64,000 nt of DNA from Closterium sp. NIES-65 (lineage: Eukaryota; Streptophyta; Zygnematophyceae; Desmidiales; Closteriaceae), in assembly GCA_948144175.1 (NCBI GenBank), contig CANXME010002051.1, forward strand, positions 124,001 to 188,000. The letters run 5' to 3'. Every line of letters starts with the position of its first letter. Position 1 is the first letter of the stretch. The notes beneath the pieces are model-generated. The model saw nothing but the letters and a program-made list of their open reading frames with translations. It had not been told where the DNA came from and ran no database searches. Shown here piece by piece: positions 28,572-64,000 of the stretch. Position numbers and translations under genes: made by a program.

Positions 28572-28688
28572 TGTCAAATTATAATGTTGTGTAGGCTCTA
28601 GTGGGGTAGCCTATATGGGGTACACAATTCTAAGGTTGCATACTTGTATCACTTTCATTCCTTAGTCATTCATTCTCGTTTCTTCTCA
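28572..28688 (+). repeat. 5' LTR of Copia F (117-bp type)
   Basis: Starts TGTCAAATTATAATG, ends GTTTCTTCTCA. It differs from the minus-strand LTR at 47535-47651 by about two bases, but from the 3' LTR of F at many. Confidence 0.93.
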
Positions 28689-30009
28689 TGGTATCGAGCA
28701 GGTTCCCTCGTGGGAACTGTTCCTAGGGCCCACCAAGTCGAATTTTTTTTTTTCCTGCCCGGAGCGCACTTCGCTTAGGCCCGAGTCGCGCCTCGTGTGC
28801 CCTCTCTACCGTCGCGCCCGACCTAGGCCTCCTTCGGCCCCGTCGCGTTGCCCCTAGCAGCCTCCCTCGCGCCGCCCTTACTTGGCACGTCGCCGCCCTT
28901 CGCGGCCTGACGCCGCCCTACTCGGCCCGTCGCCACCCTCATCGGCCCGTCGCCGCCTTTGCGCCGCCCGTAACGGCACGCCGCTGACCTCTGCGGCCCC
29001 TCGCGCCGCCCTCACCCGCAGCCCTGCCACCTACCTGCGGGCGCGCCACCCTACCAACGGCCCCGCCGCCCATACCTGCGGCCCCGCCGCCCTTACCTGC
29101 GGCCCCGCCGCCCTTACCTGCGGCCCCGCCGCCCTTACCTACGGCCCCGCCGCCCTTACCGCGGCCCCGCCTCCCTTTGCTGCGGCCCCGCTACCTTGCT
29201 GCGGCCCCGCCGCCCTTCGCTGCGGCCCCGCCACCTCACTGCGGCCCCGCCGCCCTTCACTGCGGCCCCGCTGCCCTTACCTGCGGCCCCGTCGCCTGCT
29301 GCTGCGGCCCCGCCACCTTACCTGCGGCCCCGCCACCTTACCTGCGGCCCCGCCGCCCTTCGCTGCGGCCCCGCCACCTTACCTGCAGCCCCGCCACCTT
29401 ACTTGCGGCCTCACCGCCCTTCGCTGCGGTCCCGCCACCTTACCTGCGGCCCCGCCACCTTACCTGCGGCCCCGCCGCCCTTCGCTGCTGCCCCGCCACC
29501 TTACCTGCGGCCCCGCCACCTTACCTGCGGCCCCGCCGCCCTTCGCTGCGGCCCTGCCACCTTACCTACCACCCCGCCACCTTACCTGCGGCCCCGCCGC
29601 CCTTCGCTGCGGCCCCACCACCTTACCTGCGGCCCCGCCACCTTACCTGCGGCCTCGCCGCCCTTACCTGCGGCCCCGTCGCCTGCTGCAGCGCCGCCCG
29701 CCAACCGAGCTGCCCAAACCGCCATACCCAGCCGAGCAGCCGACAGCCGCGCCGCCCTGCAGCCGAACCGCCGAGCAGCCCAGCCGCCCAGCAGCCGAGC
29801 TGCAGAGCCACCCAGCCGCCGAGCCGCCCAGAAGCCGAGCCGCCCAGCAGCCGAGCCGCCCAGCAGCCGAGCCGCCCAGCAGCCGAGCCGCCCAGCAGCC
29901 GAGCCGCCCGCACCGCCGAGTCGCTCGAGCCGCCCTCTCCGGTAAGAGCAGCGCCTCTTTCTCCGCACTGCCCTTACCCTACTGTTTGCGCTGCTAGTCT
30001 ACTTCTGTC
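28689..30009 (+). other. Leader of Copia F with 21-bp tandem array and primer site
   Basis: The primer site TGGTATCGAGCAGG lies at 28689-28702. From about 29040 to 29680 a unit of about 21 bp, containing CTTACCTGCGGCCCCGCCGC, is repeated some 25-30 times. A GAGCCGCCCAGCAGCC array follows (29770-29930). Open frames through it are repeats read as protein, not genes. Confidence 0.8.
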
Positions 30010-33000
30010 ATGGCTACCCCTAGTGTCCTCGCTTTTGACGCTGAGGGTAGGGCCATTGACTTTGACGTCGGGATAGATGACGTGCAGCTTTTCTTACAGT
30101 GCGATAGGGCAGACGGCCTCTCTCTTTGACCTCACCTCTGGTGCCTCTCCTGCCCCTGCTGCTGATGCTGACGCCACTGTTCGCTCACAGTGGGCCACGC
30201 GCGATGCTGCTGCACGTCTTGCTGTGCGTCGCCACCTTCCTACCTCTGAGCGTGCGCACTTTAGCCAGTACAAGAGTGCTCAGACCTTGTACGACGCTGT
30301 AGTTGCACGCTACTCCTCCCCTGCCAAAGCTGCACTGAGCCGACTCATGCTACCGTACCTCTTCCCTGACCTTGCTGCCTTTCCCACAGTCGCTGACCTC
30401 ATTACGCACCTCCGCACTAGTGACACTCGCTACCGCGCTGCGCTCCCTGCTGACTTCTGCGCCGAGAACCCCCCCCCCATGTACATCACTCTCTACTTCA
30501 TAGTCACTCGTCTCCCTGACTCCCTTCGTGTAGTCAGGGACCACTTCCTCTCAGTCTGTCCCACCACTCTCACTGTAGACCTCCTCGAGAAGTCCCTCCT
30601 AGCGGCAGAGAAGAGCAGAGTCGCTGTAGGGGCCTCTCGTGGTGACCCTCGCACCCCCATCTTTGAGGGGTGTTCTCCTTCCCCCCTATTGCCCTCTATC
30701 GCCTCTTCCGCTGCGGCCGACCTCGTTGGTCTGGAGTCGGTTGGTGCGGCGTCTACCCCTAGTGGGAAGCGTCGCTCTGGCAAGGGCAAGGGGGGCAGGG
30801 GCGCTGGAGGAGCTAGCGGGGGCGGTGGAGGCGGCGGTGGAGGCAGTGGAGGGGGTCGGGGTGGGAGTGGGAGTGGTGGCGGGGGTGGAGGTGTCGGCGG
30901 CGGCAGTGGAGGCGGAGGCGGCGGCAGCGGTGGCGGTGGGAGCGGAGGTGGTGGAGGTGGCGGAGGTGGAGGAGGCGGTGGCGGAGGAGGAGGAGGAGGA
31001 GGTCATGGCTCTTCACAGAGGAGTGGCTCCGGTGGTGGTCAGCGCCAGCAGCAGCAGCGCAGTCGGGAGACCCTGTCCCCTCAGCAGCTCCGTGAGTGGT
31101 ACTCTGCACGCCAGCGGGGTGGGGGTACTGGTTCGTGCACCTACGTCCTGCGCACCGGCGACCGTGCAAGTGAGCAGTGTGGGGGTGCGCACCCCACCCA
31201 GCGCTGCTTTCGCCGACTGACGGACGCTTGGCGTTACCAGTTCCCTGAGGCCATTGAGATCCCTCACTGGGGCGAGCTGTCTAGGGCAGGGGTAGCTATC
31301 TTTGACCTTGACTTAGATGCTATTCTTGCTGCTATGTATACTGTGTCTATTAGTGAGGAGGGTGACTGTTACCGGTGTTTCCCGCCCGACCCGGGCATTG
31401 CGACTACTGCTCTAGGTGCTGGTGAGGCTGCTGCTCTTGGTGCTAGCGAGGCTGCTGCTCTAGGTGCTTGTGCGTCTGCTTCCTCCAGGACTGGTGCGTC
31501 TGCTTCCTCCGGTGCTAGTGGGTCTGCGTCGGCTTCGGCCTCCCACACCTTCACACTTGACTCGGGGGCTTCTCGCTCCTTCTTTCGAGACCGCACCACA
31601 CTCACGCCGCTTGGTCGGCCAGTTACAGTCTCCCTAGCAGACCCCTCTGGGGGTCCTATCCTTGCTCACTTCTCCACTGTCCTCCCGTGTCCGGCGGCCC
31701 CCTCTGGCACCCTGTCTGGTCTTTACATCTCCTCGTTCTCTACGAACTTGGTGAGTGGTGCTGACCTACAGGATGCAGAGGTTCACCAGTTCACTCCTGC
31801 AAGTCAGCGGGTGACCCACTTCATGGACGCTCGGACAGGCCGACACCTGGCCACGTTTACACGTCGGCCGGGGTCGAGCCTGTACACACTGACCACTGCG
31901 TCTCCTCCAGTCCCTGCGTCTGGTCAGGTAGCTGCGTCGGGTCAGGTGTTTGCTGCAGCGTCCAGGTCTGGTCCTGAGTCTGCCCCCTGTTCGTGTCGTC
32001 TCCTGTCTCACGAGACTCTCCTCTGGCACCACCGCCTTGGTCAGCCCTCCCTGCCTCGTCTCCGAAGCATGGCCTCCCGTGTCCTTGTCTCTGGTCTTCC
32101 CCGGTCCCTCCCTCCCCTTCCTCCAGGGCCTGGCCCTACCTGCGTCCCCTGTGTCGAGGGGCGGCAGCGGGCTACCCCTCACTCCTCCGAGTTTCCTCCG
32201 ACAGAGGCCCCGCTGCAGACGCTTGACATGGACGTGTGGGGCCCAGCCCGCGTCCGTGGACAGGGTCACAAGCGCTACTTCCTGCTGGTAGTTGACGACT
32301 ACTCGCGTTACACCACAGTCTTCCCCTTGCGCAGCAAGGGTGATGTCACTGAGGTGTTGATCGACTGGATCCGCACAGCTCGTCTCCAGCTCAGGCAGAG
32401 CTTCGGCTTGGACTTTCCTGTTCTGCGTCTGCACTCTGACAGAGGTGGAGAGTTCTCCTCTGGCCTTCTGCGAGCCTACTGTCGTGCACGAGGCATCCAC
32501 CAGATCTTCACGCTTTCGGACTCTCCACAGCAAAATGGGATTGCTAAGCGCCGCATTGGCATGGTCATGGACGTCGCCCGTACGTCCATGATGCATGCGG
32601 CTGCCCCCCATTTTCTGTGGCCGTTTGCGGTTCGGTACGCGGCGCATCAGATCAACCTTCAGCCTAGGGTCTCCATGCCGGAGACATCCCCAGCTTTGTT
32701 GTGGACGGGGAAGGTTGGCGATGCGTCTGCGTTCCGTGTCTGGTGATCTCGGGCGTTTGTCCGCGACTTGTCTGCGGACAAGCTGTCCCCTCGTGCTGCT
32801 CCTTGCGTCTTCCTGGGTTTCCCCCCTGACACACCAGGGTGGCAGTTCTACCACCCCACCTCTCGCCGTGTTCTGTCCTCCCAGGACGTCACGTTCGACG
32901 AGTCGGTCCCCTACTACCGTCTCTTCCCCTACCGCACTCCGTCCCTCCCCCCGCCACCGCTCTTCCTTGTGCCAGGCTCCCCCCCGGTAGACCCCCTCCC

Positions 33001-35998
33001 CCCTCAGGGTCCTGCCCCTTCAGGTGTGTCCAAGGTAGACGCTGTTGAGCCTGTCGAGGTCGTTGGTGACTCTGGTGCTGCTGAGGGTGCTGAGCCTCGG
33101 GGTGCTGACTCTGGGGGTGCTGAGTGTTTGGGTGCTACGCTTGGGGGTGCTGAGCCTGAGGGTACTACGACTAGGGGTGCAAATCCTGGGGGTGCTGAGT
33201 CAGGGGGTGCTGAGCCTGGGGGTGCTACGCATGGGGGTGCTGAGCTTGGGGGTGCTGAGCCTGAGGGTGCTGAGCCTGGGGGTACTACGCCTGGAGGTGC
33301 TGAGCGTGGGGGTGCGGAGCCTGAGGGAGCTGGGCCTGCTGGTGCTGTGCCTGGCGGTTCTCCAGTTGCTTCTTCTCGCCGGGAGCCACTCTCTCCACAA
33401 AAGCTGCATGAGTGGTTTGCCCGGCGCTGGAGGCGAGCTGCTGGAGCTGGAGGTGTTGCGGGTACTGGAGGTTCTGTTGCTGCTGAGGGAGCTGGTGCCA
33501 CGGGTCCCGGAGGTGCTCGTACTAGGAGTACTGGAGCTGCTGGACCTGCGGCTACTTCTGGAGCTGGAGCTGCTACGGGTGTTGGCGCGGAGGATGCTAC
33601 TGTCGGTCGTGGAGGCGGTCCTGCTGGGGGTACTACTGGTGCTACTGGAGGTACTGGAGCTGGAGCTGCTACTGGTGCTGGTGCTGCCACTGGGGGTGCT
33701 GGTGCTGTCCCTGCTGTGTCTAGAGTCGCCGCGCGGCCTCGGCCGTACTTCGTTCCGCTCCTTCAGCAGGTTCTTGGTCTCCTGTCTTCTACTGGTCCTC
33801 CTCCTCCCTTAGAGTGTCCACAGCCTGTCACGTCACAGTTACAGTTACAGCCGGCCTCCCCACTGCCTGCTCTGTCTCCCTACACTGGTCCTACTAGAGG
33901 TCTTGCTGAGCGTCGTGAGCCTGCGTCTCGCCCTGCGTTTCCTTTCCGTGCTGCTCACACTAGTGTGCGCGGTTCGCTTCAGCGTCCTCCTCCTGTCCCT
34001 GGCACGCACCGGATGTCTTTGTGTCCGTCCACTGCTCCTCTGCGTGCCCCTTTGCCTTCTCCTCCTGAGTCCTCTCTTCCTGCTCTTGCCGACCCGTAGT
34101 CGGACTCTCTTCGTGCTGCCAGTCCTACTGTCACGCGTCTCCTTGCTACTATTGTCACTGACCCTTCCTTTGAGTCTGCTGCTGTGTCTGCCCTAGTTGC
34201 TGAGCTCGTCGACTTTGCTGCTCGCTGTCGCCTAGACTACGCCGCCAGTCTTGTTGCTGAGTCTGAGTCTGTCTGTCCTCCGTCCATCAGGGGTGAGTGT
34301 GCCTTTGGCACGGACGTCCTTGAGGACAGGCAGGAGGAGTTCCAGTGCTTGGCCGCTGCTTCACCTCATCTCGTGTCCATAATGCTTACCCCTGAGGGAG
34401 ACCCGGATGCACTTGACATCCCGACTCCGCGCTCTTACGCGGAGGCGATAGAGGGTCCCTACTCCTCTCAGTGGCAGGTAGCTATGGACGCAGAGATGGC
34501 TTCCTGGAAGTCCACAGGCACCTACGTTGACGCTGTTCCCCCTCCTGGGGCGAACATCGTCAGTGGCATGTGGATTTTCAGGGTGAAGCGACAGCCGCGT
34601 TCTCCACCTGTCTTCAAGGCGCGTTACGTGGCTCGTGGCTTCAGTCAGTGGCAAGGAGTTGACTACTTTCAGACCTTCTCTCCCACCCCGAAGATGACCA
34701 CTCTTCGGGTACTGCTGCACATAGCTGCTCACCGCGACTACGAGCTACACTCTCTTGACTTCAGCACTGCTTTCTTGCAGGGCAGCCTGCACGAGGAGAT
34801 CTGGCTGCGTCGCCCACCTGGTTTCACTGGGTCTTTTCGTCTTGGCACCCAGTGGAGCCTCCGGCGGCCAGTCTACGGTCTCCGCCAGGCACCGCGTGAG
34901 TGGCACGACACACTGAGGACTACGCTTGCGGCTCTTGGGTTTGCTCCCTCTCTTGCCGACCCGTCGCTGTTTCTGCGCACCGACACTTCTTTGCCGCTGT
35001 TCTAGATCCTCGTGTACGTCGACGACTTGGTCGTTGCCACAGCTGACACTGCTGGACTCGCCTACGTGAAGTCCGAGCTGCAGAAGAGACACACGTGCAC
35101 TGACCTGGGTGAACTGTGCAGCTACCTTGGCTTGCAGATCACCCGGGACAGAGCACGCCGCACCATTACCCTTTCTCAGTCACACATGGTGCAGCAGGTC
35201 CTTCAGCGCTTCGGCTTCACGTACTCCTCGCCTCAGGCCACTCCTCTGCCTACTCGCCACTCTCTCTCAGCTCTGCCTTCGGATGAGTCCATAGAGTCGA
35301 GTGGCCCGTACCCAGAGCTTGTTGGCTGCCTCATGTACCTGATGACCTGCACACGACCTGACCTTGCATACCCTCTTAGCATTCTCGCATGCTATGTTGC
35401 TCCTGGAAGACACAGACCGGAGCACATGGCTGCAGCGAAGAGGGTGTTGCGCTACTTGTGCAGTACGTCGGGCATGGGGCTTGCGCTTGGAGGGCAGAGT
35501 CCAGTGGTCCTCACTGGGCACGCAGACGCTTCTTGGGCTGACGACCAGGCTACGCAGCGGTCGTCACAGGTTTACACCTTCAGCCTTGGCTCCGGCTCTG
35601 TTTTGTGGCGGTCTACCCGCTCGTGTTCTGTTCTCACCTCGAGCTGTGAGGCTGTGATCTACGCGGGGGCCATGGCTGCACAGGAGCTACGCTGGCTCAC
35701 CTACCTACTGACTGACCTAGGAGAGCCGCCTCGTTCTCCTCTAGTTCTGTACGTAGACAACAAGGCCATGCTGGCCTTTTGTCGGGAGCACAGACTAGAG
35801 CACAGAACGAAGCACATTGCTCTTCGCTACTTCCTGGCTCGTGAGCTGCAGCAGCGTTGTCAGCTCCGCCTCACCTATGTGGCCTCTGAGGCCAACACTG
35901 CTGATATCTTTACCAAGGCCCTTCCGCTTTGTGACCATCAGCGCTTCTGTAATCAGCTGGGCCTTGTGCCTACCTTGCCTCACTTGCTCACCTCTTGA
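30010..35998 (+). pseudogene. Gag-Pol of Copia F, interrupted
   Basis: The ATG at 30010 starts MATPSVLAFDAEGR. A 2-base loss in a CT repeat near 30118 shifts the frame; from there one frame runs to 35998, broken by TGA at 32744, TAG at 34097 and TAG at 35003. Order: Gag core, poly-Gly/Ser tract (30800-31010), zinc-knuckle-like EQCGGAHPTQRC, protease TLDSGASRSFF, HHRLGQPSLPRLR, integrase MDVWGP / LHSDRGGEF / QQNGIAKRRIG, pentapeptide-repeat linker (33060-33360), RT ARYVARGFSQWQG and YVDDLVVA, RNase H EAVIYAG and YVDNKAML. The three integrase acids and the YVDD box are all kept; the stops alone inactivate it. Confidence 0.93.
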
Positions 35999-36210
35999 CC
36001 TTGCTTGTACTGTTACATATATATATCCCTGCTCTATTTTGTCTAACCTTCTTTATATATATGTACTCCTGAATGTGAACTGGCCTTGTGGCCTTGAACT
36101 TGTGCTCGGAATGTGTGGTGACTTTGTGATCCACCCTGAGCTTGCTTTACTTTGCTTTGCTTGACTTGTCTTGTGACCCCTTGTTCTCCCCCACTTTGCC
36201 TATGGGGGTG
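35999..36210 (+). other. 3' untranslated region and polypurine tract of Copia F
   Basis: Non-coding, with TATATATAT runs near 36017 and 36055, ending TTTGCCTATGGGGGTG, the plus-strand primer tract before the 3' LTR. Confidence 0.75.
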
Positions 36211-36338
36211 TGTCAGAACATTATAGTTCATGCATATTGTGTAGGCTATAGTGGGGTAGCCCATAAGGGGTACAACCCAATTAGGGTTAGTACTTGTACC
36301 CAATTCATTCATAGTTCATTCATTCTCGTTTCTTCTCA
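36211..36338 (+). repeat. 3' LTR of Copia F (128-bp type)
   Basis: Starts TGTCAGAACATTATAG, ends TTCTTCTCA. It differs by about one base from the minus-strand LTR at 54940-55067. It is followed by GGAAG (36339-36343). Confidence 0.93.
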
Positions 36339-36343
36339 GGAAG

Positions 36344-37987
36344 CGTAGTACTATAGCGAGCATTGTGATCAGCCAGTGCTACTTGGACCAACGTAGGAAG
36401 CGGGGTAAGTGTTGTGTGGTCGCGGAAGAAACAATGTGAAGCTCTGGAGTCCATAGTGAAAGACAGCGAACGTCCTCTGGAGTAGCTCCTAGATTAATGT
36501 CTACACAAGTATCTACACTAGCAACAGGCCCCTCAGTAAGACTAGCACCAAAGCTACCAACAGTCGAGTAAACAGAGTCAAAACACTAGAGTCAACAACA
36601 TCATACATAGCATGAGGAGTTCCTAAGAGATCAACCAAGTGAGAAGCTGACATGCCCTACAAGGCGAGGGCGTACGTTTGAACAAGAATAAATCCAGTTA
36701 GGGGCAGGGCCATCAACGTCGTAGGCCAACCGAACCGTGTCAGTAAGCTGAGCAAAGCACTGACCCCGTGGGTGGTTGCGACCACAAGGCTGGCCGCGGC
36801 AGGCACCTGTCGGAACATGATAGGTGCAGGGAGGGTGGACGACACCGCGTTGCAGCTGACGTTGTCCTAACCCCTGCCCCGAAACCTGCTGCTGCCGCTG
36901 TTGCTGCTGTGGCTGCAGCAAGGGGAGGGGCTGCTGCTCCTTCTGCTGCTATCGCTGAGTCAGGTACCACGCCGCTGCTCCACCCCCTGCGGCTGGCAGA
37001 CCAGTAGGTGGCTGACAAACCCAGGCGTCACCTCCACCAGCTGCAGCAGGGGAGTCACCGGCCACTGCACAAGGCGCTCCTCCAACCCCTACACTCCTGC
37101 CGCCGCCGCTCGCCACGTCACCCCCATCGCCTCCGCCGCCTCCGCCCGCACCCTGACTGCCCCTCCTGCCACTCCTATCCCGAGACCGCAAAGAAGTCGT
37201 AATAGCAGCTGCGGTGACTTTAGTAGCGGCAGTGGTGAGGGAGGCAGTAAAGGTGGGCAGCTGAGGGACAGTGCACTCGTGAAACAGTGGAGAGGGCACA
37301 TCGGCAGAGGCAGAAGCTACTGAGCAGAGGTTGCTCTCTACGTCCTTGAGGGCCGACTCAAGGACCTCGATAGTGGGCTCGTTAGGGTGCTTCAGAAGAA
37401 GAGCGTCACAAACCGAGGCAAGGTGGTAAGGGAGGCTAGTGGCGATGAAAGATAGTAATCGCCACGGGGGGGGGGGGGGGGGGGGGGGGGGGGATCAGTG
37501 CAAGCAGCGCGGTTGCTAGAATCGAGCGAGCACAGATGAGTGATCAAAACAGCACCGCGCGCTCAAACGAGGCGAGGTCAGGAAACAGGAACGGAAGGAA
37601 CAGGCGACCAAGAGAGACAGTGGTAGGAGTAGCGTGGCGGGCCTTGATCGCAGTCTGGAAATCACTAGCCGTGCGAACCTGAGTGAAGTGGGTCTCCTCA
37701 GACTCAGGGAGGAGGCTGCTGAGGGCGATGCAGGCCGCAGCGTCACGCGACTTCCACACGGTCACGTCAGCACGCTCGCATGCATAACCGTCACTGTCTG
37801 CAGGTGTGGGGTCAGCTACTAAGGGCGCAGGGTCAGCAGGCACAGGAAGGTCACCGGAAGCGTGCGGCCACACAGTCTCGTGTGCCTGAACCTGGATTTC
37901 TAGGAGGCGGCGCCCACGCAAAAGCCAAACCAAGAACTCGAGCGGCCTACCCTCAGCATCAAAGCGCAGAACCCTAGGTGTCGTCAT
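36344..37987 (-). pseudogene. Gag and protease start of Copia H, broken
   Basis: The ATG at 37987 (minus) opens MTTPRVLRFDAEGRPLEFLV, parallel to MATPSVLAFDAEGR of the other copies. The Gag core continues with GRLFLPFLFPDL. At 37493-37466 a 28-base C run (minus strand) replaces the short Pro-Pro-Pro site of the other Gags and throws the frame. Gag resumes with SLPYHLASVCDALLLKH, a Gly-rich tract (37160-37070), a zinc-knuckle-like CRGQPCGRNHPRGQC (36795) and protease FTMDSRASHCFFRD (36465), where the catalytic DSG has become DSR. Several stops and shifts. Confidence 0.75.
37466..37493 (+). repeat. 28-base G homopolymer
   Basis: An uninterrupted run of 28 G on the plus strand, inside the gag of element H. 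It lies at the position where other copies have about 8-10 C on the coding strand (Asn-Pro-Pro-Pro-Met). Confidence 0.9.
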
Positions 37988-38700
37988 AACGGAAGCGTAG
38001 AGGTGGATACTGCTGCTGCCGAGACCCTAAACGCCTAGAGGGTCCGAGCAGGGCGCGACAGGCTGAGCGGAAGGCGCGACGCGACGGGACAGCAGGGCGC
38101 AACGCGACGGGACAGCAGGGTGCGACGCGACGCGACTCGACGGGACAGTAGGGCGTGACGCGACGGGCTGGGGGCGAATCGATGGGAGGGGGGGGACGAG
38201 ACGCGACGGGCAGGGGACGGAACTATGGACAGGGGACGAGATGACGGGCAGGGGACGGGACGACGGGCAGGGGACGGGACGGGCAGCGCGACGCGACGGG
38301 CAGGGGACGCGACGGGCAGAGGACGCGACGGGCAGAGGACGCGACGGGCAGGGGACGCGACGCGACGGGCAGGGGACGCGACGCGACGGGCAGGGGACAG
38401 AACGACGAGTAGGGAGGCGCGTCGAGTAGGTGACGGGCGGGTGACGGGCGCGACGCGACGGGCAGGGGACGCGACGCGTCGGCTAGGGGACGGGCGCGAC
38501 GGGCACTTCGAGCGCTACGAGCGCTTCGTGATGGAACGGGCAAGCGCTAATGGCGCTACAGGAGGCACGGGCATTTCTTGACAGAACGGGCAAGCGCTAA
38601 GGGCGCGACAGGATGGAACGAACGGCCACGACGGGCACTACAGGACGAAACAGACACAGCGGGAACGGTAGACTATGTGCAACGGGCGCGAAAGGCAGGG
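37988..38700 (-). other. Leader of Copia H, GC-rich tandem repeats
   Basis: The plus strand carries a dense array of GACGGGCAGGGGACGCGAC units (38220-38490) and related CGACGCGACGGGACAGCAGGG units (38070-38170). No protein domain is present. It occupies the same place (before gag) as the arrays of A, E, F and G but has a different sequence. Confidence 0.65.
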
Positions 38701-39684
38701 CTGATTTTATCAGGGTAATTACCCTGATTTCAGGGTGATTCCAGGCTTTCCACTTTGTGGAGACTGAAATTTTAGAGTTATTGAATTTTCAGCCCTGATC
38801 CAATCAGAGTAATAGTTTAGCTATCCTTGATTTTGAGTACATTGTAACAGACTAGGCTGTTAGTGGACCCTGACTTAACAGAGTATCGACTCTGTGGACC
38901 CTGACTTATCGAGAGGAAGTTTCTCAGAAGTTTTCTTCCGATGACCCCGCCTTGGATTGATCGCAGTGATCCCCCCATATGTGCATAATCCCCCCCCTTT
39001 CCGCTTTATCGAGAAGAAGTTTCTTCGAAACTTCGTTCTGATACACCTACCATTGAGATCGCGCGAATCTGCAATGTCAGATATACTTTGCTGGGATTGG
39101 TCGAAATAGGCTCTGACAGCGGAAATTTTTGACTCGAACAGGTGTGACTCGCCCGTTCGGTCGTTACACTCGCTCCAGAAGGAACGCCTCTGAGGGTGAC
39201 TAACTACAGTCGCAGCGTGTCTGATGCATGCCATCTGAAGGAGATCCGATTGGGCATGGTAAGACAGGGAAACGTTACACTCGCACACCATATAGGTCAA
39301 TCACACCCGCCCTGCACAAATCAGTCGAGTGTACAGCCAGCGGGAAACACAGCGCGCAGACTTTATGGATGGTGGGGATTTTCTCCCCGGTAACAAAGCG
39401 TGCGTTACTTCTCTGATGTTCAGTTCTTGACCCTGAACAATCAGAGTTAACTACTTTACAACCCTGAGCAATCAGGGTACTGCTTTTCTCGAAAATGTGC
39501 ACCCATAATAGAGGGGGAAAATTTTCCCCGGAATAAGGGAGGCTTAAAATGAAACGTCAGCCCTGGCGAGAGGCACTAGCGGGATCTCAAAGGATCCTAA
39601 TCTAGGTGATACCATCTCAAGAATGAAAGTGTTGGTTTGACTAACCCTAACAGTTGTACCCCTTATAACACACATCACTAAGAC
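38701..39684. other. Unassigned AT-richer region with palindromes
   Basis: No gene recognised. A perfect 20-bp palindrome, ATCAGGGTAATTACCCTGAT, lies at 38709-38728. Related ATCAGGGT/AATCAGAGT words recur up to about 39480. A roughly 40-bp segment starting TTATCGAGAGGAAGTTTCTC (38905) is repeated in diverged form at 39007. It may include the lost 5' LTR of H. Confidence 0.35.
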
Positions 39685-39686
39685 TA

Positions 39687-40284
39687 CCGTATTCTCCCGG
39701 ACATAACACCCGGGGGTATTATGATAACCACAGGGAAAAAAGGGGGGGGGGTCCTCTCAACGGAAAATCCTATATAATACCCGGGTGGTTATATATGGTA
39801 TATTTTAATGCAAGAGGATTCTCAAATTAGACAGTTTGGGTGTTTCAATGGTCGTTTTAACATCACAGTTTGAGGCGAGAATGTGAGTTTTGGCAAGAAT
39901 GTGAGTTTCACCTTTCGGGCCACTTGCAGCGGAAGATTCGCCAGCGTGGCAACTTCCTAGAATGTGGGATGGGGGAAATGTCCACTTGCAGCGAAAGATT
40001 CGCCAGGGTGGCGACAGTGAGATTGTGGGAGGGGGAAATGTTGGCGGATTCTAAGTGCAAGTACGCGCGAAATTTCATTTAGGAAGCAATTCTCGCGATA
40101 TTCCCCTATAAGGAATCAGACTCGATAACAACTATAATAGGAATCCGTAAGAAAAGGGGGGTGTTATAGAAAATCATCCAAAAAGGGGGGTATAGTAGAA
40201 ACGAGGTCGCCCATAGCACCCACCCCGCACAAGCTACCCGGGGGTGTACTATCATGGGGGGGTGTTTTGTCCGGGAGATTACGG
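39687..40284. mobile_element. MITE-like element with terminal inverted repeats
   Basis: Terminal inverted repeats of about 25 bp: CCGTATTCTCCCGGACATAA at 39687 and its near-exact reverse complement (CCGTAATCTCCCGGACAAAA) ending at 40284. TA dinucleotides flank both sides (39685-39686, 40285-40286), as expected for a Tc1/mariner-type target duplication. The 598-bp interior is non-coding, with G runs and several further inverted words (ACCCGGGGGT type). It would need a transposase from elsewhere. Confidence 0.75.
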
Positions 40285-40286
40285 TA

Positions 40287-43263: not shown

Positions 43264-44379
43264 GGTAGATTCGCTCGGAATAGGGAACGGAAGGGGATAC
43301 AGGGGAAGGGGGGGGGAGGAAAAAGGAAGGGATAAGGGAAGAAAGGGGAGTACACGCGGTTGAGAAGGAGGGGAGGGAGAAGCAGGCATGGGTATGGAAG
43401 GGAAGGTATGGAAAATAAGGAGGAAGGGAGGAATACTATCCCGTCATGTCTCTCCACCCCCTCTCGAGTCCTTACCTTACAGTCCCGTCCCTTCACCCAA
43501 CTGCCCAACTCACCCAACTCCATTCCCATTCCTCCAACATCCTAACCTGCTTCGCTTCCTACCCTCTCGCTTTCTGTTCCCGTTCTCCTCCTTTTCCTCT
43601 CACGCCGTCCCACACTCCCTACCTGGTAGCACTACGCGGATGGCTTCAGCGCCGGCATCCGCCGAGAGTGCGAGGGGAGCGCGTGACGGGGGTGAATGGG
43701 TGCGAGCGGTGGGAGTGAAGGATACGCGACGTATTCGCGGGTGGTTCGAGAGAAGCGGGTCTAGTGGCCTGCTGGTCTCGCTCTGCCTCGCGTCGTCTGA
43801 TCGCGGACCCCCAATGGCGCGCGGGTGAACAACTGTGAAACGCGACGGCACTCGTTTATCGCTACTATACGTGGCAAACCACCCAAGGCGCTGCGGGATG
43901 GGATGACGCGGCTCGTCGTTCTAAAAGCAGATGCGAGGGGTATCGCCTCTAGGGTGGCGCGTGCGATGGACGCGGTGCTCGCGCGGAGGTGATCGCGCGA
44001 TGCTAAGCTGGATATATAATTCATGCATGCCCTGGTCTCTTGTTCCATTTAGGCGAATTGGTGCACAGGCTTTCGGCTTGCTTTCCCAACCCAAGCCTGG
44101 GCCAAGCGTTTTTGTTCACCGTTTGGTTTGGTTGGGGCCAAAGCGTCAGACCTCACCTCTCGGACCGGTCCACAACCACGGAGCCTGTCCAGGTTAAGGT
44201 TATATAAGGTCGTAACCATGCACAGCAAAGCATAGAGAAACTAGAAATATGGTCTACACAACCAGCAGCCCAAAGGCGCACGTAGGAAACACGTTATTTC
44301 TATATCCCACGGATAACCACCAGCACGGCTGGGGAGCTCTCTATGCTGAAAAAAAAGAAAGGATTAGGGGGGGCGGAAG
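43264..44379. other. Island sequence without a recognised gene
   Basis: Purine-rich then pyrimidine-rich sequence. A plus-strand ORF at 43639-43828 (MASAPASAESARGARDGGEW...) has codon-like composition but no recognised domain and could be an exon of an unknown gene. Past 43990 the sequence is AT-richer and non-coding. Confidence 0.3.
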
Positions 44380-47300
44380 GAGTCCCCTAGCAACCAAGAG
44401 GCTCGGAGGTCCGGGTGAATAGAAGGGGTTCCGTCATGGTCCAAAACGAGGAAGCGAAATCGAGTGGCTAGCTTGATACGAGCAGCTGAGCGTCGTTGTT
44501 TTTTTGTTGATTGTTTCTTGCTTCGCCATAGGAGGATTTTGAAAGCGATGAGGAATTGTGCCAGGATGAGCTGGAGGATCTCAAACCGGGAGGAGGGTGA
44601 ATCTTGAAACTTGTGTTCACAGCGCGCGTTCCATATAGCTTTTGCAGATGCTCCAACCAGAAGGCTCTAGGGGGCCACCTGTCCAGCTCTGGAGGCGAGC
44701 GGAAAGAGCAAGAGCTCAAGAGGAGGAGAGCAGTGGAGGTGGCGAGGAGCGACAGAGGAGAGAGCAGAAATCACTGCGGGGGCCACCCCACACTTGTAGA
44801 AGATGTGAGAGATAGTCTCTGTAGGTGCTTCAGTGCAAAGTGAACAGATCCCTCGGTCCATGGCAAAATTGAAATGCGAGCCCGAAGGAAGAGCGCGAAT
44901 GTAGAACTGGTACAAGACGTCGCGCTGGAGACTGGGTTGCTCGCGTAAAAAGTCATGGGAGAAGTCAGGGACGAAAGGAGGAGGAGCTGGGAGGATGTGA
45001 GTCCAACGGGCGGCGTGGTCAAGGGGAAGCTTTGTGTAGAGGCGGCGACGAATCTCGGCTATATTGGGGTATCCGTCCTGTAAGATGTCGAGCCGTGCGC
45101 CGAGCCCTGCACCTGTATAGTAGGGGCCTGCAAACCAGGACCCGACGACATGCACCGCGTAGAGGTCACCTATGTTGAATGTGCCGTCTCCGATTGACGC
45201 GCGGACGATGAGGCGGTTGGGAAGGACACGGTGGAGGGAGGCCGAAAGCGACGACGGAGGGGAAAAAGAGGTGAACTGGAGAGCAAGAGTGGGGGAGGAC
45301 TTTGAGTCGTCTTTGGGGACGAACCACTCCCCGCAGGCTGCCAAGGGGGGAGGGGGGGAGCGAAGGACTGACCACCAGGTTTTGGGGATGGCACGGACGA
45401 GGTCTCTCCAGACTCTACGTCCGGAGGAGGAGTTGGCCACGGGGAATGTTGAGGTGAAGTGTTTAAAGGAGACCACGCCAAGGGAGTGAAAGATAAGTGA
45501 GATCAAGTGACCGACCCGAATCTGCATGGATAGGAGGAAGCGTTCACGCATAAGAATTCCGAATGGCTTCCCATTCGGTTTGAGTATGAATTGGTTGAAG
45601 GCGGTGGGCTCAGCCATAATACACATAGGGACGAGGCGAGGCGGGGAAATAACCGGGGAGATTTCTATCAATGCGTGTAGTTCGGCAAGCGCTCGACTCG
45701 GAGTTACCTCTGGAAGGATGCCTGATTGAAGAATGGTGGGGTGTGCTAAGAGACAGTGTGTGCCAAAAGGGAGGCAGACGGCGGCTCTCGCCACCTCTTC
45801 TGATGGTGAGGCGCCGAAGCGGCGAAATGCACGGTGGCTGGCAAGAGCGCAGATTTGGGTGGAAGGGGCGATCGCCCCGAGACCTCCATGGCGGGTGGAG
45901 TTATACAGGAGACGATCGGGGATGAGGCGGACTGCAAGGCCGTGTTCCTTGAATCGAGAGGAGGAGAGGAAGTTCCCAACCAAAACGTCGAGGCGTTTGA
46001 TAATGTCAGGGGAGGGGGGTTGAAAACGGCCGGGGAAGGAGAGAACGGAGTTTAAGAAAACCGACGCAAGTGATTTGCGGCAGGAAGCAGTGGCACGGAG
46101 GGCGCAAGGAATTTAGTCGTGCGCTGAACGCGAGAGAGTGTCATAGACCAGGTGGTGGCGCCTAGTTGTGCCCGTTCTACATAGATGCCAAGAATACGGT
46201 CTGCCTCTTGAGGAGTGCGAATGGGAATGGGGCCAGCGAGGAGGATGAGTTCTGGTGCAATGTGAAATGGGATAATTGAGCATTTATTCTAGTTGGGGTG
46301 CTCTCCAGAAACGGCGGCGAAAGTTCGGAGATGTATAAGGGTGGTCCCAAGCTCTCTGACGGAAGAGAGGAAGATGGTGACATCGTCAGCATTGCAAGCC
46401 ATCAGACGGCATTGGGTCGTAGAGAGGGGGAACCCTGGGAGGAAGAGGGAGAGTTGAAGGATTTCGATGACACATACAAAAAGGAGGGGGGCCAGAGGGC
46501 AGCCTTGTCGGACCCCCGTTCGAACGGGGAAGGTGGGCCCAGCAAGGTTGTTAACTGAGATGCGGGTGGAGGTATTGGTGTGCATAAGGCGGACCCAGGC
46601 GATGAACTGCTCAAAAAGTCCAAGCGTAGTGAGTGCCCGGAAAAGGAAGGCACGGTCGACCAGATCGTAGGCTTTGCGAAAGTCAACAGTTAAGGCGAGC
46701 AGGGGGGTCTTAGTGATTGTGCTCCAGTCAAGGATGTCGAGTGTATCGTTGATCGTATTGCCTATTTTCCTATTCTTAATAAAAGCAGTCTGGGAGGCGT
46801 GGTTGATCAAAGGAAGCACAAGTTGCAACAGATTGGCAAGACAGAGGGCCAGTACCTTGTAGTCCGAGTTCATGAGAGTGATGAGGCGGAGGTTCTCTGC
46901 GGAGGAAGAGTTGCCCTTTTTGGGAATTAGGACGGTGCGGCCTGAGAGCATTGACGACGGAAGGGCTTCGAAGATGGGGGGTGAGAAAAAAGTGAGAAGA
47001 AAGCGGGAGAGAAACGGGTTTTATGTTGTTGGAACAGTTCACCCGGGATGCCGTCGGGGCCAGGGGTTTTGCCACGGGAGAGTTGCCCTATAGCTTTGTT
47101 AATTTCCAGAAGAGAAAAGGGAGATTGCAGGTGGGAGAGGAGCTGAGGTGGGAGTGAAGAAGGGGGAATGTGTGCCCAGAAGGCAGGGTTTGGCACGCCC
47201 GGGGTTGCCCCACTATAAAGGGATTGAAAAAAACTTGTGCATTCAGCGGTCATGGCATGGAGATCAGAGGTGGTTTATCCGTCAGATACTGTGAGCGAGG

Positions 47301-47534
47301 AGATTAGTGAGTCTTTGATGCGGGAGTTAAGTCCTACCAGCAGGGAGGAGATTCCCATCTCCCGATGACCCTCGACTTTGAGTTTTGCTTTTAGAGCGAG
47401 CTCAGCGATTTTAGAGGTCTCATATCGTATAAGTTGTTGGCGGGCTTTGAGGAGTTGTGCACACTCTTCTTGGTCGAGAGGAGAGAGGGCGGATTGGAGT
47501 TGGAGGCGACTGATGAGCTGTACGAGATGCTCGG
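44380..47534 (-). mobile_element. LINE retrotransposon, 3' half
   Basis: Minus-strand continuation of the LINE whose 5' half ends at 28571. The first bases, CCGAGCATCTCG, repeat the CCGAG at 28567-28571 and continue its frame. It contains the reverse transcriptase and C-terminal region. The 3' end near 44380 is approximate; no clear poly-A tail was seen. Confidence 0.85.
44380..47534 (-). pseudogene. LINE ORF2, reverse transcriptase and C-terminal part
   Basis: The minus strand opens EHLVQLISRLQLQSALSPLD, the linker after the endonuclease. RT motifs follow: GKTPGPDGIPGELFQ, VLIPKKGNSSSAENLRLITL, LTVDFRKAYDLVDRAFLF (motif A), VRTGVRQGCPLAPLLF (motif B) and CNADDVTIFLS (catalytic ADD, with Asn for the usual aromatic). 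The C-terminal part has RDVLYQFYIRALPSGSHFNF and a Cys-containing RGICSLCTEAPTETISHIFY, the zf-RVT type domain. Stops (for example TAA near 47280 and TAG at 44667) and frameshifts break the frame. The enzyme would copy LINE RNA at the nicked target. Confidence 0.85.
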
Positions 47535-47651
47535 TGAGAAGAAACGAGAATGAATGACTAAGGAATGAAAGTGATACAAGTATGCAACCTTAGAATTGTG
47601 TACCCCATATAGGCTACCCCACTACAACCTACACAACATTATAATTTGACA
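47535..47651 (-). repeat. 3' LTR of Copia G (117-bp type)
   Basis: The reverse complement equals the 5' LTR of F apart from about two bases. It is flanked by CTCGG at 47530-47534. Confidence 0.93.
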
Positions 47652-47858
47652 CACCCCCATAGGCAAAGTGGGGGAGAACAAGGGGTCACAAGACCAGTCA
47701 AGCAGAGCAAAGCAAGCTCAGGGTGGATCACAAAGTCACCACACATTTCGAGCACAAGTTCAAGGCCATAAGGCCAGTTCACATGCAGGAGTACATATAT
47801 ATATAGAAGGCTAGACAAGAAAGAGCAGGGGTATATATATGTAACAGTACAAACAAGG
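47652..47858 (-). other. 3' untranslated region and polypurine tract of Copia G
   Basis: Non-coding. On the minus strand it ends with TTTGCCTATGGGGGTG, directly before the LTR. Confidence 0.75.
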
Positions 47859-50800
47859 TCAAGAGGTGAGCAAGTGAGGCAAGACAGGCACAAGACCAAG
47901 CTGAGTGCAGAAGCGCTGATGATCACAAGGCGTAAGTGCCTTGGTGAAGATATCAGCAGTGTTGGCCTCAGAGGCCACGTAAGCAAGACGGAGCTGACCA
48001 CGCTGCTTTAGCTCACGAGCAAGGAAGTAGCGAAGAGCAATGTGCTTCGTTCTGTGCTCCAGTCTCTGCTCTCGACACAAGGCCAGCATGGCCTTGTTGT
48101 CTACGTACAGCACTGGAGGAGAACGAGGCACCTCGCCAAGGTCAGTCAGCAGGTAGGTGAGCCAGCGAAGCTCCTGTGCAGCCATGGCCCCGGCGTAGAT
48201 CTCAGCCTCACAACTGGAGCCGAGAACAGAAGCCGAGCGGATAGCCCACCACGAGACAGAGCCGGAACCAAGGCTGAAGGTGTAACCCTGTGACGACCGC
48301 TGCGTAGCCTGGTCGTCCGCCCAAGAAGCGTCTACGTGCCCAATGAGGACCACTGGACTCCGCCCTCCAAGCACAAGCCCCATGCCCGACGTACTGCACA
48401 AGTAGCGCAACACCCTCTTCTCTGCAGCCATGTGCTCCGGTCTGTGTCTCCCAGGGGCAACATAGCGTGCGAGAATGCTAAGAGGGTATGCAAGGTCAGG
48501 TCATGTGCAGGTCATCAGGTACATGAGGCAGCCAACAAGCTCTGGGTACGGGCCACTCGACTCTACGGACTCATCCGAAGGCAGAGCTGAGAGCGAGTGA
48601 CGAGTAGGCAGAGGAGTGGCCTGAGGCGAGGAGTACGTGAAGCCGAAGCGCTGAAGGACCTGCTGCACCATGTGTGACTGAGTCAGGGTAATGGTGTGCT
48701 GTGCTCTGTCCCGGGTGATCTGCAAGCCAAGGTAGCCGCGCAGTCCACCCAAGTCTCTGCACGTGTGTCTCTTTTGCAACTCGGACTTCACGTGGGCGAG
48801 TCCAGCAGTGTCAGCAAAGACTAAGTCGTCGACGTACACGAGGATGTAGAACGGCGGCAAAGAAGTGTCGGTGCGCAGAAATAGCGACGGGTCAGCAGTA
48901 GAGGGAGCAAACCCAAGAGCCGCAAGCGTAGTCCTCAGTGTGTCGTGCCACTCACGCGGTGCCTTGCAGAGACCGTAGACTGGCCGCCAGAGGCTCCACT
49001 GGGTGCCAGGAGGAAAAGTCTCAGTGAAGCCAGGTGGGCGGTGCAGCCAGATCTCCTCGTGCAGGTTACCCTGCAAGAAAGCAGTGCTGAAGTCAAAAGA
49101 GTGAAGCTCGTAGTCATGCCGAGCGGCTATGTGCAGCAGCACCCGAAGAGTGGTCATCTTCGGGGTGGGAGAGAAGGTCTGAAAGTAGTCAACTCCCTGC
49201 CGCTGGCTGAAGCCACGAGCCACGTACCGCGCCTTGAAGACAGGCGGAGAACCCGGCGGCCGCTTCACCCTGAAAATCCACATGCCACTGACGATGTTCG
49301 CCCCAGGTGGGGGGACCTCGTCAACGTAGGTGCCTGTGGACTTCTAGGAAGCCATCTCTGCGTCCATAGCTGCCTGCCACTGAGAGGAATAGGGACCCTC
49401 TATCGCCTCCGCGTAAGAGCGCGGAGTCGGGATGTCAAGTGCATCCGGGTCTCCCTCAGGGGTAAGCAGTACGGACACGAGATGAGGTGAAGTAGTAGCC
49501 AGACACTGGAACTCCTCCTGCCTGTTCTCAAGGACGTCCGTGCCAAGGGCACACTCACCCCAGACGGACGGAGGACAGACAGACTCAGACTCAGCGACAA
49601 GACTAGCAGCGTAGTCTCAACGATAGCGAGCAGCAAAGTCGACAAGCTCAGCAACTAGGGCAGACGCAGTAGTGGACTCAAAAGAAGGGTCAGTGACGAC
49701 AGTAGCAAGGAGACGCGTGACAGTAGGACTGGCAGCACGAAGAGAGTCTGACTCAGGGTTGGCAAGAGCAAGAAGAGAGGACTCAGGAGGAGAAGGCAAA
49801 GGGGCACGCAGAGGAGCAGTGGACGGACGCAGAGACATCCGGTGCGTGCCAGGGACAGGAGGAGGACGCTGACGCGAACCGCGACCACTAGTGCAAGAAG
49901 CACGGACCGCTGACGTAGGGCGAGACGCAGGCTCACGACGCTCAGCAAGACCTCCAGTAGGACCTGTGTAGGGAGACGGAGCAGGCAGTGGGGAGGCCGG
50001 CTGTAACTGTTACTGTGACGGGACAGGCTGTGGACACTCTAAGTGAGGAGGAGGACCAGTAGAAGACGGGAGACCAAGAACCTGCTGAAGAAGCGGAACG
50101 AAGTATGGCTGAGGCCGCTCGGCGACTCCAGAGACAGCAGGGATAGCACCAGCACCCCCAGTGGCAGCACCTGCACCAGTAGCAGCTCCAGCTCCAGTAC
50201 CTCCAGCAGCACCAGTAGTACCCCCAGCAGGACCGCCTCCAGGACCGACAGCAGTAGCCTCCGCGCCAACATCCGCAGTAGCTCCAGCTCCAAAAGTACC
50301 CACAGGTCCAGCAGCTCCAGTATTCCCAGTACGAGCACCTCCGGGACCCATGGCACCAGCTCCCTCAGCAGCAACAGAACCTCCAGTACCCGCAGCACCA
50401 CCAGCTCCAGCAGCTCGCCTCCAGCGCCGGGCAAACCACTCACGCAACTCCTATGGAGAGAGTGGTTCTCGGCGAGAAGAAGCACCCCGAGAACCGCTAG
50501 GCAAAGTACCAGCAGGCCCAGCTCCCTTAGGCTCCGCACCCCCAGGCTCAGCACCTCCAGGCGTAGCACCCCGAGGCTCAGCACCCCCAGGCTCAGCACT
50601 CCCGGACTCAGCACCCCCAGGCTCAGCACCCCCACTCGTAGTACCCTCAGGCTCAGCACCCCCAGGCGTAGCACCCACACGCTCAGCACCCCCAGAGTCA
50701 GCACCCCCAGGCTCAGCACCCTCAGCAGCATCGGAGTCACCAGCGACCTCAACAGGCTCAACAGCGTCTACCTGGGACACACATGAAGGGGCAGGACCCT

Positions 50801-53800
50801 AAGGGGGGAGGGGGTCTACCGGGGGGGGGACCTGGTACAAGGAAGAGCGGTGGCGGGGGGAGGGACGGAGTGCGGTAGGGGAAGAGACGGTAGTAGGGGA
50901 CCAACTCGTCGAACGTGACGACCTGGGAGGACAGAACACGGCGAGAGGTGGGGTGGTAGAACTGCCACCCTGGCGCGTCAGAGGGGAAACCCAGGAAGAC
51001 GCAAGGAGCAGCACGAGGGGACAGCTTGTCCGTAGACAAGTCGCGGACAAACGCCCGAGATCCCCAGACACGGAACACAGACGCGTCGCCAACCTTCCCC
51101 GTCCACAGCAAAGCAGGGGAGGTCTCCGGCATGGAGACCCTGGGCTGAAGGTTGATCTGATGCGCCGCGTACCGAACCGCAAACGGCCACAGAAAATGGG
51201 GGGCAGCCGCATGCATCATGGACGTACGGGCGACGTCCATGACCATGCCAATGTGGCGCTCAGCAATCCCATTTTGCTGTGGAGAGTCCCGAAGCATGAA
51301 GGTCTGGCGGATGCCTCGTGCACGACAGTAGGCTCGCAGAAGGCCAGAGGAGAAATCTCCGCCTCTGTCAGAGTGCAGACGCAGAACAGGAAAGTCCGAG
51401 CCGAAGCTCTGCCTCAGCTGGAGACGAGCTGCGCGGATCCAGTCGATCAACACCTCAGTGACATCACCCTTGCTGCGCAAGGGGAAGACTGTGGTGTAAC
51501 GCGAGTAGTCGTCAACCACCAGCAGGAAGTAGCGCTCGTGACCCTGTCCACGGACGCGGGCTGGGCCGCACACGTCCATGTGAAGCATCTGCAGCGGGGC
51601 CTCTGTCGGAGGAAACTGGGAGGAGTGAGGGGTAGCCCACTGCTGCCCCTCGACACAGGGGACGCAGGTAGGGCCAGGCCCTGGAGGAAGGGGAGGGAGG
51701 GACCGGGGAAGACCAGAGACAAGGACACGGGAGGCCATGCTTCGGAGACGAAGCAGGGAGGGGTGACCAAGGCGGTGGTGCCAGAGGAGAGTCTCGTGAG
51801 ACAGGAGGCGACACGAGCAGGGGGCAGACTCAGGACCAGACCTGGACGCTGCAGCTAACACTTGACCCGACGCAGCTACCTGACCAGACGCAGGGACTGG
51901 AGGAGACGCAGTGGTCAGTGTGTACAGGCTCGATCCCGGCCGACGTGTAAACGTGGCCAGGTGTCGGCCTGTCCGAGCGTCTGTGCAGTGGGTCACCCGC
52001 TGACTCGCAGGAGTGAACTGGTGAACCCCTGCATCCTGTAGGTCAGCACCACTCACCAAGTTCTTAGAGAACGAGGGGAGGTAAAGACCAGACAGGGTGC
52101 CAGAGGGGGCCGCCGGACACGGGAGGACAGTGGAGAAGTGAGCAAGGACAAGACCCCCGGAGGGGTCTGCCAGGGAGACTGCAACTGGCCGACCAAGCGG
52201 CGTGAGTGTGGTGCGGTCTCGAAAGAAGGAGCGAGAAGCCCTCACGTCAAGTGTGAAGGTGTGGGAGGCCGAAGCCGACGCAGTACCTGAGAGCGCAGAC
52301 TCACCAGTACCGGAGGAAGCAGACGCACTAGCACCTAGAGCAGCAACCTCGCTAGCACCAAGAGCAGCAGCCTCACCAACACCTAGAGCAGCAGTTGCAA
52401 TAACCGGGTCGGGCGGGAAACACCGGTAACAGTCACCCTCCTCACTAATAGACACAGTATACATAGCAGCAAGAATAGCATCAAAGTCAAGGTCAAAGAT
52501 AGCTACCCCTGCCCTAGACAGCTCGCCCCAGCAAGGGATCTTAGTGGCCTCAGGGAACTGGTGACGCCAAGCGTCCGTCAGGCGGCCAAAGCAGCGCTGG
52601 GTGGGGTGCGCACCCCCACACTGCTCACCCGCACGGTCGCCGGTGCGCAGGACGTAGGTGCACGAACCAGTACCCCCACCCCGCTGGCGTGGAGAGTACC
52701 ACTCACGGAGCTGCTGAGGGGACAGGGTCTCCCGACTGTGCTGCTGCTGCTTGCGCTGACCACTACCGGAGCCACTCCTCTGCGAAGAGCCACGACCTCC
52801 TACTCCTCCTCCTTCGCCACCGCCTCGTCCACCTCCGCCACCTCCACCACCTCCGCTCCCACCGCCACCGCCGCCGCCGCCTCCGCCGCCGCCGCCTCCG
52901 CCTCCACTGCCGCCGCCGACACCTCCACCCCCGCCACCACTCCCACCACCACCCCCACCCCCTCCACTGCCTCCACCGCCGCCTCCACCGCTCCCGCTAG
53001 CTCCTCCAGCGCCCCTGCCCCCCTTGCCCTTGCCAAAGCGACGCTTCCCACTAGGGGTAGACGCCGCACCGACCGACTCCAGACCAACGAGGTCGGCCGC
53101 AGCAGCAGAGGCAATAGAGGGCAAGAGAGGGGAGGGGGAACACCCCTCAAAGATGGGGGTGCGCGGGTCACCATGAGAGGCCCCTACAGCGACTATGCTC
53201 TTCTCCACTGCTAGGAGGGCCTTCTCGAGGAGGTCAACAGTGAGAGTGGTGGGACAGACTGAGAGAAAGTGGTCCCTGACTACGCGAAGGGAGTCAGGGA
53301 GGCGGGTGACTATGTAGTAGAGAGTGATGTACATGGGGTGGGGTTCTTGGCGTAGAACTCAGCAGGAACTGCAGCGCGGTAGCGAGTGTCACTAGTGCGG
53401 AGGTGCGTAATGAAGTCAGCAACTGTGGGAAAGGCAGCAAGGTCAGGGAAGAGGTACGGTAGCATGAGGCGGCTCAGTGCAGCAGTGGCAGGGGAGGATT
53501 AGCGTGCAACTACAGCATCGTACAAGGTCTGAGCACTCTTGTACTGGCTAAAGTGCGCACGCTCAGAGGTAGGCAGGTGGCGACGCACAGCAAGACGTGC
53601 AGCAGCATTGCGCGTGGCCCACTGTGAGCGGACAGTGGCGTTTGAATCAGCAGCAGGGGCAGGAGAGGCACCAGAGGTGAGGTCAAAGAGAGAGAGACCG
53701 TCCGCCCTATCGCACTGTAAGAAAAGCTGCAGGTCATCTATCCAGATGTCAAAGTCAATGGCCCGACCCTTAGCGTCGAAAGCGAGGACACTAGGGGTAG

Positions 53801-53804
53801 CCAT
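47859..53804 (-). pseudogene. Gag-Pol of Copia G, heavily interrupted
   Basis: The ATG at 53804 starts MATPSVLAFDAKGR. Damage in order: TAA at 53499 (SS after VVAR), a 1-base loss in the Pro-Pro-Pro C run near 53340, a 1-base gain in a C run near 50830, TAG near 50451, TAA near 50010, TGA near 49617, TAG near 49345 and TGA (from CGA) at 48501. Domains otherwise follow A and F: poly-Gly tract (53000-52800), protease, integrase with LHSDRGGDF and NGIAERHIG, linker, RT with ILVYVDDLVF, RNase H with EAEIYAG and YVDNKAML. The protease site is TLDVRAS instead of TLDSGAS, so the catalytic motif is lost too. Confidence 0.92.
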
Positions 53805-54939
53805 GACAGCAGTAGACTAGCAGTGCGAACAGTAGGGTGAGGGCAGTGCAGTGACAGAGGCGCTGCTCTTACCAGACAGGGCGGCTCGGGCGGCTCGGGT
53901 GCAGAGCGACTCGGCGGCTCGGCAGCTGGGCGGTAGGCGGCTCGGCAGCTGGGCGTCTCGGCGGCTCGGCTGCTGGGCGGCTCGGCGGCTCCGCTGCTGG
54001 GCGGCTCGGCGGCTCGGCTGCTGGGCGGCTCGGTGGCTCGGCTGCAGGGCGGCTCGGCGGCTCGCCTGTTGGGCGGCTCGGCGGCTGGGCGGCTCGGCGG
54101 CTGGGCGGCGCAGCGGCTCGGCTGCTGGACGGCTCGGTGGCTGGGCGGCTCGGCGGCTCTGCTGCTGGGCGGCTCGACGGGGCCGCAAAGGAGGCGGTGG
54201 AAGGGCCGCTGAGAGGGCGGCGTCCGGGGCCGCTGAAAGGAGGCGGCTGGGCCGCCGAGAGGAGGCGGCGGTGCTGCGGAGAGGAGGCGGCGGGGCCGCG
54301 GAGAGGAGGCTGCGGGGCCGCCGAGAGGAGGCGGCGGGGCCGCTTAAAGGAGGCGGCGGGGCCGCTGAAAGGGCGGCGACGAGGCCGCTGCAGGGGGGAG
54401 TGGCGGGGCCGCTGAAAGGAGACGGCGGGGCGGCTGAAAGGAGACGGCGGGGCCGCTGAAAGGAGACGGCGGGGCCGCTGAGAAGGGCGGCGACGGGCCG
54501 CTGAAGAGGGCGGCGGCAGAGCCGCAGGGAGGGCGGCGTCAGGGCCGTGCAAGGGCGGTGACGGGGCCGCTGGTGAAAGGGCGGCGAGGGGCCGCAGGGG
54601 GAGAGCGGCGACGGGCCGCGAAGGGCGGCGGATCGGGGGCCGCAAGAGCGGCAGATCGGGGCCGCAAGAGGCCGCTAGGCGGCCGTGAGGGCGGCTTGGG
54701 CGGTGCGACGCGGCTGTTTGGGCGGCGCGACGCGACCGCCAGGGCAGCGCAACGAGGCCGCTAGGGGCTGCTAAGGGCGACGCGGCGGGGCCGTGAGGGG
54801 CCTAGTGAGGGCGCGACGGTAAGGAAGGCACACGAGGCGCGACTCGGGCCTAAGCGGAGCGCGCTCCGGGCAGGATTTTTTTTTTTTCGTAGTGGTGGGC
54901 CCTAGGAATCTTTCCCGTTAGGGAACCTGCTCGATACCA
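53805..54939 (-). other. Leader of Copia G with tandem repeats and primer site
   Basis: The primer site TGGTATCGAGCAGG on the minus strand lies next to the 5' LTR. The plus strand holds a GGCGGCTCGGCGGCTCGGCTGCTG array (53880-54170), then GGGGCCGCTGAAAGGAGGCGGC units (54200-54560). No gene. Confidence 0.8.
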
Positions 54940-55067
54940 TGAGAAGAAACGAGAATGAATGAACTATGAATGAATTGGGTACAAGTACTAACCCTAATTG
55001 GGCTGTACCCCTTATGGGCTACCCCACTATAGCCTACACAATATGCATGAACTATAATGTTCTGACA
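54940..55067 (-). repeat. 5' LTR of Copia G (128-bp type)
   Basis: The reverse complement equals the 3' LTR of F with about one difference. It is followed by CTTCC (55068-55072). Confidence 0.93.
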
Positions 55068-55072
55068 CTTCC

Positions 55073-63999: not shown

Positions 64000-64000
64000 G

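Follow-up and report, generated by a model that had tools for sequence, protein, structure and literature searches.

Inversion 2z3 of Drosophila buzzatii was generated by the transposable element Galileo (Delprat et al., 2009; PMC2775673). That study describes oppositely oriented Galileo copies at the breakpoints, swapped target duplications, two chimeric copies, terminal repeats that are alike between the copies and unlike within each of them, and informative sites that place the crossover, all of which is also found at the Closterium locus described here. Galileo, however, belongs to the DNA transposons, has inverted repeats, and makes 7-bp target duplications, whereas our locus involves a Copia LTR retrotransposon with 5-bp duplications (PMC2775673). 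Unlike in 2z3 as presented there, both insertions lie inside other retroelements and thus supply independent evidence from reading frames; moreover, that study compared un-inverted chromosomes, whereas here the continuity comes from homologous LINE and Copia copies (PMC2775673). Yeast structural variants resemble our case in that LTR retrotransposon (Ty/LTR) families are enriched at rearrangement junctions and ectopic recombination between dispersed repeats is invoked, but those data are population-scale statistics and not a single event resolved by target duplications (PMC10412453).

The kind of rearrangement is therefore already known, and Galileo provides a close published precedent for both its mechanism and its diagnostics. 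In rearrangements mediated by HERVs, unlike LTRs together with unlike target duplications in one provirus mark recombination between elements, and the same logic applies here, although HERVs are mammalian endogenous retroviruses and our elements are algal Copia copies of which both reciprocal products are present. In the literature searched, which left most subscription papers outside, no such inversion was reported for Closterium, and no LTR-element paper met all terms of our strictest query. The locus is a very clean and unusually complete record of a known kind of rearrangement.

The window, that is, the whole analyzed stretch of 64,000 nucleotides from Closterium sp. NIES-65 (contig C1753), contains two homologous Copia copies in opposite orientation, one at each breakpoint: F on the plus strand (28572-36338) and G on the minus strand (47535-55067). 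In F, the domains follow the Copia order, with Pfam rve and gag_pre-integrs in 30077-32743 and RVT_2 in 34184-35005; among the 120 protein matches listed, the closest Copia proteins all come from Closterium. When F was compared with the reverse complement of G in 200-column windows, identity was mostly 89-97% across the coding part, dropping to about 51-80% in the 5' leader, and the longest exact run common to both was 111 bp.

The LTRs of both elements start with TG, end with CA, and are flanked by 5-bp target duplications. LTR comparison assigned the F 5' LTR (28572-28688, plus strand) and the G 3' LTR (47535-47651, minus strand) to a 117-bp type I, and the F 3' LTR (36211-36338, plus strand) and the G 5' LTR (54940-55067, minus strand) to a 128-bp type II. 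After reverse complementation of the G copies, the type I LTRs were identical at 115 of 117 positions (two differences) and the type II LTRs at 127 of 128 (one difference), while the two LTRs within one element, be it F or G, shared only 77-78% identity over 105 ungapped bases. This crosswise pairing had been reported in a first-pass annotation of the sequence, which took it as evidence of an inversion, and the pairing itself was reproduced exactly. As evidence, it holds for the match of type and fails for the identification of mates, since unrelated LTRs of the same type differ at a median of 3 positions (112 pairs per type; ranges 0-7 and 0-6), so that 2 of 117 and 1 of 128 indicate a match of type and not of insertion. 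The F 5' LTR even has one difference to some other copies versus two to the G 3' LTR. As unrelated same-type LTRs are equally close, we dropped LTR identity as proof that two LTRs are mates; judged from these alignments, the crosswise identity reads as a subfamily match, which alone would not identify mates. It is the flanks and the chimerism of the elements on which the proof of the inversion rests.

To see how far unlike ends occur in other copies, we searched the entire genome (874 Mb, 2400 contigs) with each of the four ends of F and G in turn. The end types I and II represent two subfamilies with many copies each. Among the matches listed, which were read by eye, at least 20 pairs of like ends were present (same strand, one contig, less than 16 kb apart), and the only pairs of unlike ends were those of F and G, on C1753 in the window and on a second contig, C1072. 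Type I and type II Copia elements differ in LTRs, leader, and 3' part and are nearly alike in the middle (fetched elements L021-L036 and L042-L061).

The base-by-base switch between the two LTR-type variants that the first-pass annotation had proposed to look for was found once in F and, reciprocally, once in G. We used 274 diagnostic columns, at which at least 80% of the type I copies and at least 80% of the type II copies carry different bases. F has the type I base at 204 of the 212 left sites and the type II base at 54 of the 62 right sites, so that its left is type I and its right type II; G has type II at 206 of 212 left sites and type I at 61 of 62 right sites, and is thus the reciprocal chimera with a type II 5' side and a type I 3' side. 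Allowing a switch improved the likelihood score of F by about 484 and that of G by about 496, compared to a gain of at most 1.0 in each of 13 like-ended controls. The counterparts of F and G on C1072 showed the same reciprocal pattern at the diagnostic sites.

The target duplications are swapped in the same manner. The 5-bp flanks within one element are unlike and are identical only crosswise between F and G, as had been claimed: CCGAG at 28567-28571 (plus strand), a copy of the duplication of the LINE insertion, has its partner at 47530-47534, where its reverse complement CTCGG is read (minus strand), and GGAAG at 36339-36343 (plus strand), from the insertion into the element Copia H, has its partner at 55068-55072 in the form of the reverse complement CTTCC (plus strand). 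Except for these target duplications, the junctions contain no deletion or duplication. As controls, 16 elements (8 type I and 8 type II) were fetched that had been picked for like ends at both sides and are thus not a random sample; 12 of the 16 had an identical 5-bp target duplication. The remaining four form two same-site pairs: in one pair, 4 of the 5 bases agree, and in the other the duplications agree once the element end is shifted by one base.

Both insertions interrupt an older retroelement, the halves of which now lie on opposite sides of the inversion. The upstream part of a LINE ORF2, with the endonuclease domain at 27849-28496, runs on the plus strand from 27849 up to the junction at 28571, and the downstream part, with the reverse transcriptase domain at 46292-47020, lies on the minus strand at 44364-47529. 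The upstream part of Copia H (36339-38026, minus strand) is inside the inverted segment, and its downstream part (55068-57454, plus strand) is outside; the far ends of both parts are approximate. Un-inverting the segment restores both reading frames, which confirms this claim of the first-pass annotation: in the LINE, GTTE, which ends at 28571, is followed by HLVQ, read on the minus strand from 47529, and in Copia H, STTL, which ends at 36339 on the minus strand, is followed by PCPAVPSG from 55068.

For the LINE, the two flanks were rejoined with a single CCGAG to give a 480-bp query. Of 28 genome matches, 13 crossed the joint (11 at 81-91% identity and 2 at 76%), 4 were the split halves on C1753 and C1072, and 11 were short and did not reach the joint; split matches thus came only from the window locus and its sister copy on C1072. 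The Copia H flanks, which were searched separately, abut in at least two copies (C299 and C160) with an overlap of exactly 5 bp that corresponds to the target duplication, and they are contiguous with 15 extra bp in at least six further copies (C1154, C697, C2100, C1255, C1642, and C1780). As the LINE and Copia H are continuous elsewhere, both junctions go back to insertions into unbroken sequence, and it is the present order that is derived.

These findings are best explained by a crossover between inverted type I and type II Copia copies, to which we assign a probability of roughly 0.93. A type I element would have inserted into the LINE, and a type II element of the same Copia family would have inserted in opposite orientation into the older Copia H, some distance away. 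A single reciprocal crossover between the two, within the coding stretch common to both subfamilies (30.24-33.69 kb), would then have flipped 16.5-23.3 kb, made up of the intervening DNA and half of each element. The outcome would be two chimeric elements with unlike LTRs and swapped target duplications, and LINE and Copia H halves parted to opposite sides of the inversion. We infer that the exchange was homologous recombination of the ectopic, or non-allelic, type; the reciprocal chimeras, the swapped duplications, the continuity of the host elements elsewhere, and the second contig all support an inversion by recombination between inverted Copia copies, as had been suggested in the first-pass annotation. 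That annotation described the flipped segment as 36339-47534 plus parts of both elements. The inversion stands, and the crossover is placed no more closely than within 30.24-33.69 kb.

The crossover bracket covers 30239-33690 in F, which corresponds to G from 53573 down to about 50161. There are no fixed differences between type I and type II from 30.24 to 33.69 kb (F coordinates), and because the subfamilies share that stretch, the crossover can only be bracketed to it, which in turn sets the size range of the inverted tract. The comparison rested on 13 copies of each type, with three same-site twins left out; for refinement of the bracket, 20 extra 2-kb pieces were taken, of which 7 failed to align and another (302 bases) hardly aligned at all. 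Fitted separately, F switched best at 30239 and G at about 33690; a common point scored 104 lower in the corrected score. A first likelihood change-point analysis, in which the common point was 218 lower, was discarded since it was biased by group size at invariant sites, and splitting the type I references into two sets of three was rejected because of a worse bias (F at about 29988 and G at about 35719). Exclusive alleles within the bracket point both ways: in F, the type II allele is present at 32125 and 32699 and the type I allele at 31951, 32446, 33125, and 33364; in G, the type II allele is present at 32125, 33382, and 33501 and the type I allele at 33344, 33347, 33385, 33549, and 33807.

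The better fit of separate switch points is what would be expected if the inversion were real and had arisen by copying during break repair, that is, by break-induced replication or by a two-step process with a conversion tract. Between 30239 and about 33690, F and G are both nearer to type II than to pooled type I. In this stretch, however, 5 of the 13 type I copies match type II as closely (mean 0.947-0.954) as type II copies match one another, and a sixth is nearly as II-like (0.940). As about half of the 13 type I copies carry a II-like body, the Copia subfamilies are mosaics, and on these comparisons the mismatch in the middle fits a type I parent that may itself have had a II-like body. 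At 94.7% identity in the bracket, F and G give no support to a long recent conversion tract, which would have left them nearly identical there; the C1753 and C1072 versions of the queried LTR-side and mid pieces are 98-100% alike. Together with junctions that are clean beyond the target duplications, this makes copying during break repair an improbable route, and we retain the single crossover as the more probable one.

A misassembly would yield exactly the observed structure if the assembler had crossed between un-recombined inverted copies and thereby flipped the intervening segment, for F and G are long related repeats. The longest exact run of 111 bp is, however, short for a long-read assembly, and the separate contig C1072 also argues against such an error. 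It is collinear with window positions 16128-59816 (43.7 kb) at 98.8 and 99.0% identity, and all four junctions have identical bases on C1072 and C1753, so that both copies of the locus in the genome are inverted. As C1072 is about 1% diverged and has insertion differences of its own, the same error would have been needed twice. The worry about misassembly that accompanied the original proposal has thus been checked, and such an error is very unlikely; the inversion appears older than the split of the two copies.

C1753 and C1072 differ by insertions at this locus. A Copia element on the minus strand occupies window positions 59817-64000 (and extends to about 66756 in window numbering) on C1753, and C1072 has the empty site; beyond this window-only insertion, collinearity restarts at 99.1%. 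Conversely, C1072 carries an insert of about 0.5 kb at approximately 1077590-1078096, with inverted ends and a 3-bp overlap, that is without counterpart at window position 40434-40436. Both contigs share one of the LTR differences (type I, position 25), and three others occur on one contig only. Since some differences are shared and others private, the Copia insertions were probably young when the copies split, and the inversion would have occurred after both insertions and before the split; the LTR differences are too few for a date. Much of the genome seems to be present twice, because three fetched element pairs (L021/L022, L027/L028, and L034/L035) share the same flanks on different contigs. 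A genome study of the C. psl. complex describes haploid vegetative cells and, in the larger genomes, many duplicated genes (PMC10407611).

The least probable reading, that F and G are two unrelated mixed elements produced by gene conversion or by template switching in reverse transcription and that the inversion is illusory, can draw on the mosaic subfamilies with their II-like type I bodies and on LTRs that do not by themselves identify mates, but it leaves the swapped target duplications at both elements and the matching breakage of two separate host elements unexplained, and reverse transcription normally gives a new copy two LTRs of the same sequence.

The inverted segment had been said to carry a reticulon gene. 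Low-copy sequence is present inside the segment, at 40962-42431 on the minus strand, and it contains a possible reticulon-like gene; the name is weakly founded, as two exon pieces joined by hand matched Pfam Reticulon with an E value of 0.013 and 15.9 bits, compared to a cut-off of 31.8, and single reading frames gave no match. Window positions 41000-42400 (1.4 kb) have two full-length matches in the genome, on C1753 and C1072, and four others of less than 90 bases. The C1072 match to this piece reached 2514 bits versus 2527 bits for the self-match and was displayed as 100%, clearly above the 98.8-99.0% of the 43 kb around it. A 19-bp tandem array of 12.5 copies (42444-42683) also lies inside the inverted segment.

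The locus provides a base-resolved and doubly attested retrotransposon-mediated inversion in a relative of the land plants, with a polarity, that is, an ancestral order, set by two independent broken elements and not by an outgroup. The combination of mismatched end types, crosswise target duplications, and a broken host element also offers a template for counting such events genome-wide. Extensive duplication and variation in genome size have been reported for Closterium (PMC10407611). It is a speculative and rather doubtful extension that structural change in this large, repeat-rich genome is routinely driven by recombination between Copia copies, a process that may also have made the second, about 1%-diverged copy of the locus. 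If this were true, Copia crossovers would drive the copy-number variation reported for Closterium.
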